From positions 744,001 through 808,000 of the forward strand of contig NZ_JAFMZP010000002.1 in NCBI RefSeq assembly GCF_024436435.1: DNA of 64,000 nucleotides, given 5' to 3'. Both the position numbers and the translations under genes were made by a program. This document shows positions 20,253-23,246 of this stretch, piece by piece. This DNA comes from Desertivirga xinjiangensis. Its GTDB lineage: Bacteria; Bacteroidota; Bacteroidia; Sphingobacteriales; Sphingobacteriaceae. Under the pieces are notes generated by a model that had not been told where the DNA came from, made no database searches, and saw only the letters and a list, made by a program, of their open reading frames with translations. The stretch's first letter is position 1. Each line of letters opens with the position of its first letter.

Positions 20253-21737
<1,485 letters not shown>

Positions 21738-21835
21738 GTTGGGTTGATTGGTTGAATTTCGTTTAACGTTAAACCTTGTTGGGAAAGGGACATTATTGCA
21801 CACACGAGTCGCGTGCCAAAGTTGGCTTATTATCC

Positions 21836-21917
21836 TTTATCGGCTAATGATCCGATATTGTCATTTATCGGGCAATCACCCGATATTTGTATTTATCGGC
21901 TAAAAGACCGATATTTA
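21836..21917 (+). promoter_or_regulatory. Three 28-bp-spaced dyads TATCGG-N8-CCGATA before satD
   Basis: Three near-identical units begin at 21836, 21864 and 21892, exactly 28 bp apart. Each is TTTATCGG, eight variable bases, CCGATATT. All six half-sites are identical. The last unit ends 4 nt before the satD start codon. This looks like an operator array for a dimeric regulator, possibly SatD itself through its C-terminal helix-turn-helix, or three RNA hairpins in the leader. See findings. Confidence 0.7.
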
Positions 21918-21921
21918 TTGA

Positions 21922-22527
21922 ATGATAAGTGTAATCACAGGAGATGTCATCAATTCGCGGCAGGCAAAGTCACCTCAAAGTTGGTTGCCGGTTTTAAAAG
22001 GCGCACTTTCCCGGAACAACATTTGGGAAATTTACCGGGGCGATAGTTTTCAGGCTGAAGATAGTCCTGAAGAAGCCCTGCTTAAAGCTATCTACATTAA
22101 AGCCAATATTAAAACCCTTAAAAATATCGATGTCCGTATTGCAATCGGCATCGGCTGTAAGGATTATAATGGCTCAAGTCCAGGCGAGTCAAACGGGCAG
22201 GCTTTTATATTATCAGGTGAAAAGTTCGAACTACTAAAAAAGGAGCGGCTTACTTTAGCGCTTCATAGCCCCTGGCCCGATCTTGATTATGAAATGAATA
22301 TTGCTATCCGGCTTGCGCTGATAGCAATGGATAACTGGGGGCAAGTGGCAGCCGAAACGGTTAAGCTTGCTATTGAGCATCCTGAAGCTTCACAACAAGA
22401 GTTAGCTGAGATCTCCGGAAGATCGCAGTCCTCGGTAAGCGAGGCTTTAAAACGCGCCAGCTTCTCTGAAATAATGGAGCTGAATGATCTTTACCAAAAG
22501 AAACTAAACCTCTTTATCTCTGCCTGA
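21922..22527 (+). CDS. SatD-family protein with C-terminal HTH
   Basis: This 201-residue protein opens MISVITGDVINSRQ, the hallmark of the SatD family. The N-terminal part (about 1-140) holds conserved GDVI, RGDSFQ and IGIG segments like those of nucleotide-cyclase-related folds. The C-terminal part (about 150-190) is a helix-turn-helix with SQQELAEISGRSQSSVSEAL. It should therefore bind DNA, and its ligand is unknown. The last base of its stop region overlaps the start of the DUF3307 gene (TGATGG), so the pair is translationally coupled, an association that recurs in Bacteroidota. Three dyads lie directly upstream and are natural candidate binding sites. Confidence 0.8.
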   Translation: MISVITGDVINSRQAKSPQSWLPVLKGALSRNNIWEIYRGDSFQAEDSPEEALLKAIYIKANIKTLKNIDVRIAIGIGCKDYNGSSPGESNGQAFILSGEKFELLKKERLTLALHSPWPDLDYEMNIAIRLALIAMDNWGQVAAETVKLAIEHPEASQQELAEISGRSQSSVSEALKRASFSEIMELNDLYQKKLNLFISA

Positions 22528-23246
22528 TGGATATATTCTTAATAAAACTGCTCATCGCACATTTTTTGGGGGATTTCTTTCTACAACCCGATTCCTGGGT
22601 TGTAGAAAAAGAAGCTAAGAAACTCAGGTCGCTGAAGTTGTACCTGCATGTGCTTATTCATGGAGGCTTGGTAATGTTATTACTTGCTGATCTGAACTAT
22701 TGGCGTCAGGCGGTGGCAATCCTGGTGCTGCATGGGTTGATTGATACCGTAAAACTTCTTTTTCAGAGATCATCGACCAAAAGGACCTGGTTCTTTGCCG
22801 ACCAGGTGTTGCACCTGATTTCCATCCTGGCAGTTTGGTATTTGAGCACGAATCCGGTTCTGAGTTTCGACTATTTGAGCAAAGAGGCTTTTTGGATAGC
22901 CGCCCTTGGAATATTATTCTTGTCCTACCCAACATCTCTTATCATTAAAACCCTCATCGCAAAATGGACTCCGAACTATTTGCCGACACAACCGGCGGGA
23001 AGTGTTGCATCCTTGCAAAGTGCAGGCAAATATATTGGAATGATGGAGCGTCTGCTGGTATTACTTTTTGTTTATACCAATCACTGGGAGGCCGTAGGTT
23101 TCTTGATAGCAGCGAAATCGATATTCAGGTTTGGCGATCTTAAAGAAGGAAATGATCTGAAATTAACAGAGTATATATTGATCGGCACTTTTTTAAGCTT
23201 TGGAATTGCGATTGTTGTGGGTATGGTGTGTGTGAATTTGGTATAA
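22527..23246 (+). CDS. DUF3307 membrane protein, SatD partner
   Basis: This is a 239-residue inner-membrane protein with about six hydrophobic helices. The N-terminus IAHFLGDFFLQPDSW and the following HVLIHG and LHGLIDTVK are characteristic of DUF3307. The conserved His and Asp residues inside membrane segments (HFLGDF, HxxIHG, HGLID) hint at metal or substrate binding, which is inference. No function is established. It is coupled to the SatD gene through a 1-base overlap. Confidence 0.8.
   Translation: MDIFLIKLLIAHFLGDFFLQPDSWVVEKEAKKLRSLKLYLHVLIHGGLVMLLLADLNYWRQAVAILVLHGLIDTVKLLFQRSSTKRTWFFADQVLHLISILAVWYLSTNPVLSFDYLSKEAFWIAALGILFLSYPTSLIIKTLIAKWTPNYLPTQPAGSVASLQSAGKYIGMMERLLVLLFVYTNHWEAVGFLIAAKSIFRFGDLKEGNDLKLTEYILIGTFLSFGIAIVVGMVCVNLV

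Follow-up and report, generated by a model that had tools for sequence, protein, structure and literature searches.

The dyad array and the operon

The locus raises the question of which protein reads three identical palindromes standing directly before a small gene, and what is controlled by this reading. In the analyzed window (the whole stretch of 64,000 nucleotides from Desertivirga xinjiangensis), the palindromes precede genes for a SatD-like and a DUF3307 protein, which are coupled and little studied.

21838..21857, no strand assigned: dyad 1, TATCGG-CTAATGAT-CCGATA (sequence, pattern search)
21866..21885, no strand assigned: dyad 2, TATCGG-GCAATCAC-CCGATA (sequence, pattern search)
21894..21913, no strand assigned: dyad 3, TATCGG-CTAAAAGA-CCGATA, with 8 nt between the dyad end and the start codon
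21922..22527, plus strand: SatD-like gene, 201 aa, proposed autoregulator binding the array (ORF, profile, model)
22527..23246, plus strand: gene for a DUF3307 membrane protein, sharing one base with the satD stop

The original prediction of three TATCGG-N8-CCGATA dyads with an exact 28-bp period before satD is confirmed: all three are exact matches, the six half-sites are identical, and their orientation flips every 14 bp. The dyad starts had been placed 2 nt too low (21836, 21864, and 21892 instead of 21838, 21866, and 21894), and the last dyad lies 8 rather than 4 nt before the start codon (ATG at 21922). The centers, described as variable, do differ in this window; across the TATCGG relatives, however, they share the consensus (C/G)TAATTA(G/C) (176 dyads).

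The window contains seven sites with at most two mismatches, compared to a mean of 1.48 in shuffled sequences, and none of 100 shuffles reaches seven. Single dyads with at most one mismatch are not enriched in the 5.5-Mb genome (21 vs. 20 for the reversed pattern), and no second double dyad with up to three mismatches is found there. A genome-wide SatD regulon was considered and rejected, as this genome shows no sign of it: the three other exact dyads (L001, L005, and L006) are each located within a long ORF.

Protein families and predicted folds

The assignment of the first gene to the SatD family needs a correction. The protein itself scores below the curated cut-off of PF16264 (29 bits), with no match at E up to 1, and no protein of this genome passes this cut-off; among 21 relatives, 15 match the profile at E up to 1 (best 6e-13). 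Since the cut-off is not reached, we call the window protein SatD-like. Two of its regions are considered below.

21922..22272, plus strand: nucleotidyl-cyclase-fold domain, residues 1–117, with invariant D8 and D41 (alignment, model, fold search)
22426..22455, plus strand: recognition helix, residues 169–178, with half-site covariation at S170, S171, and E174 (structure model)

The AlphaFold2 model, built from 59 sequences, has a pLDDT of 96.5. Its best Foldseek match is the light-regulated adenylyl cyclase 5mbg (E 7.1e-4, probability 1.00), one of only two at E below 0.001; other matches are Cas10 subunits, Ma1120, Rv1900c, a GGDEF domain, and GTP cyclohydrolase III. VIA-align yields Z of 8.3–9.7 among the 50 matches listed, the best being 2qv6 (108 residues aligned), and Y-family polymerases are also present in this list. 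As middling Z values are common, the assignment rests on Z, the Foldseek probability, and the aspartate motifs together. The best solved relative by the N-terminal profile is Ma1120 (E 0.045, not significant alone); in this alignment, D8 and D41 correspond to the FTDIEEST and QGDGF motifs, whose aspartates we take to be the metal sites of Ma1120, and both residues are invariant in the aligned SatD homologs. Thus, the N-terminal domain is predicted to have the nucleotidyl cyclase superfamily fold, and, judging from the alignment, both metal-site aspartates of class III nucleotidyl cyclases are kept. No conserved Asn or Arg was seen by eye in the alignment at the expected transition-state helix.

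The partner protein matches DUF3307 (PF11750) with 103.9 bits, above the curated cut-off of 23 bits, and its N-terminal part matches the phage moron family phrog_2470 (E 2.6e-14). The model is confident (pLDDT 91.9), and Foldseek gives no match to the fold at E 0.001. Eight residues in the first half, H12, D16, H41, H45, H69, D73, D92, and H96, are invariant in 39 aligned DUF3307 proteins, which suggests that this may be a metal-using membrane protein. PADLOC gives no match with a library from 2023, while the papers on Panoptes, a system discussed below, date from 2025.

Conservation of the array upstream of satD

The SatD profile matches 200 of 399 genomes of the family and 49 of 395 genomes of the class. 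For the upstream analysis we retained 80 named loci, the best-scoring of at least 582 confirmed stretches in the species collection, so that this set leans to close relatives. Three successive dyads at 28 bp were scored (maximum 18, threshold 15 or more), with the remaining 200-nt windows from these loci as the control. The threshold is reached upstream of satD in 69 of these best 80 loci and in one of 2203 control windows; the sequence part of the outcome named in the original prediction as refuting it, absence of the dyads before other satD genes with random occurrence elsewhere, is the opposite of what is seen. A DUF3307-like ORF adjoins satD on the same strand in 79 of the same best 80 of at least 582 loci, the exception (L079) being a locus whose sequence ends 176 nt past the satD match; in the 80 loci, the ends of the two ORFs mostly overlap or touch, with start codons chosen by best score.

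The double-dyad pattern (24 fixed bases, at most one mismatch) occurs in 76 of the 399 family genomes and, with up to three mismatches, in 12 of 60 relatives, while the reversed pattern gives zero in each. Two genomes, G040 and G125, have the array and no SatD match. In the former, a three-dyad TATCGG array with some mismatches (L019/L031, G040:C2:326178-326253) lies between an HTH_3 gene on one side and an ECF sigma factor gene on the other.

The geometry was further analyzed with 195 non-identical SatD proteins (213 loci minus 18 with an identical protein). The mean score over these loci peaks at a period of 28 (15.06, compared to 11.15–13.25 at other periods from 20 to 40 and about 10.3 in shuffles), and the peak is obtained with a loop length of 8. 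Half-sites were assigned in 161 of the 195 loci, requiring a TAT anchor and a within-array agreement of at least 0.8; hence, the constancy of TAT at letters 1–3 is no evidence. The other 34 loci, excluded from half-site statistics, comprise some arrays with other letters or just below the threshold, and a few loci where no array is seen by eye.

Among the assigned arrays, 130 have a period of 28 bp and 31 of 29 bp, 99 contain three dyads, and the center is of 8 nt. The letters vary by lineage while this geometry is kept, so that TATCGG, originally taken as the half-site, is only one among many: the classes are TATCGG (62 loci), TATTCC (15), TATCGT (13), TATCAC (9), TATCTG and TATCAT (8 each), TATAGA and TATCTA (6 each), plus others. 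The consensus of their own array is matched by 758 of 1022 half-sites, a number partly due to the choice of arrays with agreement of at least 0.8, and that of another array by a mean of 156.

Correlation of half-sites with the recognition helix

We calculated mutual information between SatD alignment columns and half-site letters in the 161 loci, with weighted sequences (effective number 117). Among all SatD columns, letter 4 correlates most strongly with E174 and S170, and letter 5 with S171 and E174; for letter 6, E174 ranks first and residue 62, outside the HTH domain, second. Helices QSSVSE and QSSISE are commonly paired with TATCGG; Q(D/E/N)A(V/I)SK with TATTCC; QN(A/S)VS(S/G/T/N) with TATCAC or TATCAT; and QNTVSE with TATCGT. 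Exceptions include QSTISE with TATCGT and QSQVST with TATCAT. In Pedobacter jejuensis (L100), six of six half-sites are TATCTG and the helix is QPLVSG, whereas most other Pedobacter among those listed have QSSVSE, QSLVSE, or QSSISE.

The same trend is observed in closely related proteins. When pairs sharing 62% identity or more are compared, a difference at residue 174 is seen in 69% of the 100 pairs whose half-sites differ, compared to 1% of the 594 pairs whose half-site is shared, although these pairs are not independent of each other. On a tree built from the N-terminal part of SatD, with the HTH domain left out (320 branches, 181 columns), residue 174 and the half-site change together on 16.9 branches with 4.8 expected (z 5.8), the highest rank of all columns, whose median is 1.3; residues 34 and 58 follow, residue 170 is fourth, and columns 134 and 137 also co-change. 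In a strict test with independent pairs, TATCG* and E174 agree in 3.5 and disagree in 0.1, the other traits tried being weaker; with only four pairs on well-supported branches, this test cannot reach significance.

Given the array before satD in relatives and its covariation with the recognition helix, it is very probable that SatD binds to the array and regulates the operon that encodes it. The same two results, both obtained from sequences, support the operator-array reading of the original prediction, and the view that SatD reads the array as an autoregulatory operator may be regarded as well supported by comparison.

Arrays on plasmids, in viral contigs, and away from satD

Four plasmids encode SatD-like/DUF3307 pairs, one from Bacteroidota (Segatella copri) and three from Gammaproteobacteria. 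In a Vibrio lentus plasmid, the pair is preceded by three copies of TTAGCC-N6-GGCTAA at exactly 28 bp, and an Enterobacter kobei plasmid has two dyads 29 bp apart; no arrays are found before the Segatella and Salinivibrio homologs (two of the four plasmids).

The exact TATCGG double dyad at 28 bp is also present in 15 viral contigs (L196–L210), while the reversed pattern yields none. With respect to ORFs (ATG starts, at least 45 aa, strongly overlapping ORFs removed), nine of the 15 arrays are clear, four overlap an ORF end by 10–21 nt (L199, L205, L207, and L208), and two (L197 and L210) fall within ORFs, of 53 and 45 aa, which are probably spurious. Four arrays are located between convergent genes (L200, L204, L206, and L208) and the others upstream of genes; since the genes are convergent, a decoy or a terminator fits these four better than a promoter operator, and the viral arrays might generally serve phages as hijacked sites, decoys, or terminators. 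Neither SatD nor DUF3307 is matched in the examined stretches of the 15 contigs, several of which are partial, and tblastn at E 1e-3 detects no SatD in the phages collection. When viral sequences were searched with two peptide patterns, one SatD relative (L211) was confirmed; by eye, it appears to have an array of its own, with three copies led by AACAGC at a 29-bp period. The arrays of L199 and L205 recur identically in genomes G210 and G110, respectively, and each of these genomes has another array of this half-site immediately before its satD.

The neighbors of the viral arrays include a terminase gene (L205) and DUF6965 genes in six of 15 contigs (L197, L199, L200, L201, L203, and L208); in L197 and L203, about 40 nt separate the array from a DUF6965 gene downstream of it. 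Orphan arrays from three genomes belonging to a single genus (L025, L212, and L213, each at 1501–1548) run into the 3' end of a DUF6965 gene of 72 aa. Two of the viral double dyads lie immediately next to tRNA genes, one in L198 (1248–1295), where the contig carries 11 tRNA genes, and one in L202 (4525–4572). Two further TATCGG double dyads with one or two mismatches (L024 and L169) lie away from satD, in neighborhoods that look prophage-like by eye. For other half-sites, viral TATTCC arrays were found in four contigs, all in one 141-aa phage gene, and were dismissed as one coincidence; no viral TATCAC arrays were found.

Promoter, mechanism, and alternative explanations

In Bacteroidota, the –7 box of promoters is TAnnTTTG and the –33 box is TTTG-like. 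A putative promoter of this type can be placed over the end of the array.

21886..21917, plus strand: putative promoter, inferred from sequence; dyad 3 would fill the spacer
21886–21889, plus strand: putative –33 box, TTTG
21910–21917, plus strand: putative –7 box, GATATTTA, weak, with two mismatches

We scanned 161 loci for the –7 box in the region that starts 8 nt before the end of the last dyad and runs to the start codon, with shuffled sequences as the control. The exact TANNTTTG is present in 38 loci compared to 4.2 expected; in 27 of these it overlaps the last dyad and in five it starts within 5 nt of it. No exact box is found at the array in the other 123 loci, this window included. The loci with a recognizable –7 box favor repression, as this box is mostly covered or touched by the array; SatD is likely to be a repressor of its own operon, so far as promoter sequences indicate.

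We therefore consider it probable that the array is the operator of the satD–DUF3307 operon, bound by SatD itself in a repressing manner and released or engaged by a nucleotide through the cyclase-fold domain. Specifically, each 20-bp dyad would be the target of one SatD dimer, in whose C-terminal HTH domain residues 170, 171, and 174 would read half-site letters 4 to 6; the fixed 28-bp spacing of dyads may let dimers bind cooperatively in one geometry; SatD on the array would repress the operon; and the N-terminal domain might bind, and perhaps make, a nucleotide that switches DNA binding. A nucleotide-responsive autorepressor is likely because the N-terminal domain has the predicted cyclase fold with both metal-site aspartates, nucleotide control being plausible. 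SatD would thereby gain a probable job, that of an operator-bound autoregulator, together with a nucleotidyl cyclase fold. The residues and letters listed above constitute a testable specificity code, with a reporter at hand.

The opposite sign of regulation, in which SatD binds the array but activates the operon, or does both depending on a ligand, with an array upstream of the –33 box recruiting RNA polymerase, is unlikely. It would agree with the last dyad being 37–40 nt before the start in many Pedobacter loci, which would place the array just upstream of a promoter, and with the 123 loci lacking an exact box at the array; in most of the 38 loci that have one, however, its position in or next to the last dyad is that of a repressor target. 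Another DNA-binding protein as the main reader might explain the arrays away from satD, in 15 viral contigs and some chromosomes, including the two genomes with no SatD match; nevertheless, the covariation peaks in SatD's own recognition helix, and such a reader seems quite improbable.

An array acting as RNA, with three leader hairpins controlling satD translation, had been the alternative of the original prediction. The strand indeed folds better than shuffles (z –3.86), and the stem arms covary within each dyad, but the minimum-energy fold is a nested structure rather than three hairpins, the fixed 28-bp period would have no reason in RNA, and the sole Rfam hit in 21500–22200 is below the cut-off. 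Moreover, a change in one half-site is mostly shared by the rest of its array and accompanied by changes in the SatD HTH domain, which would not be needed for stems alone; given the missing three-hairpin fold and the unexplained HTH covariation, we reject this explanation as highly improbable. Even less credit can be given to chance or a functionless dispersed repeat family: single dyads do occur at the control rate in this genome, but position and geometry are conserved in relatives, with the single control window among 2203, and the probability of this explanation is negligible.

Comparison with known systems

HTH repressors that regulate their own expression through multiple operators are known, among them antitoxins that repress their own genes. 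The locus resembles them in having satD first in a short operon, a C-terminal HTH domain, palindromes by the promoter, and an overlapping second gene; it differs in the sensor, which has a predicted nucleotidyl-cyclase fold, and in the fixed 28-bp array with lineage-specific half-sites. Among the matches listed in the literature, with subscription journals largely outside the coverage, there is no published SatD operator, and those listed for cyclase-fold transcription factors hold nothing of use. The likeness to class III adenylyl cyclases (Ma1120, Rv1900c, OaPAC) covers the modeled fold and both metal-site aspartate motifs.

The likeness to streptococcal satD goes through PF16264, which 15 of 21 relatives match and the window protein, being below the cut-off, does not. 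The satD gene of S. pyogenes is reported to be apparently essential in emm1, emm28, and emm49 strains, yet it occurs in 178 of 249 genomes, and acid tolerance in S. mutans has been linked to sat genes (PMC11323703). Being essential but accessory is a pattern that the repressor of a harmful partner would show; by analogy, the present system offers a possible lead on this behavior in S. pyogenes.

Panoptes (PMC12657230, PMC12657218) is the nearest precedent, as a system in which a membrane effector is restrained by a small palm-fold enzyme. Like Panoptes (mCpol/OptS with 2TM-beta/OptE), the locus is a two-gene operon encoding a small protein with a predicted palm/cyclase fold and a membrane protein, and Cas10 subunits are among the Foldseek matches of SatD; unlike in Panoptes, SatD carries an HTH domain and has an operator array, and DUF3307 is without the Foldseek match noted above. 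A guard-type system is speculative. It is a rather doubtful, though conceivable, extension that the locus is a nucleotide-guarded, Panoptes-like system wired to transcription, in which the cyclase-fold sensor would itself be the DNA-binding repressor restraining a membrane partner that is harmful or active under stress, while phages with paired SatD operators and no satD would use them as decoys or as hijacked switches reading the state of the host SatD. In any case, phage elements carry the apparent operator of a host regulator.
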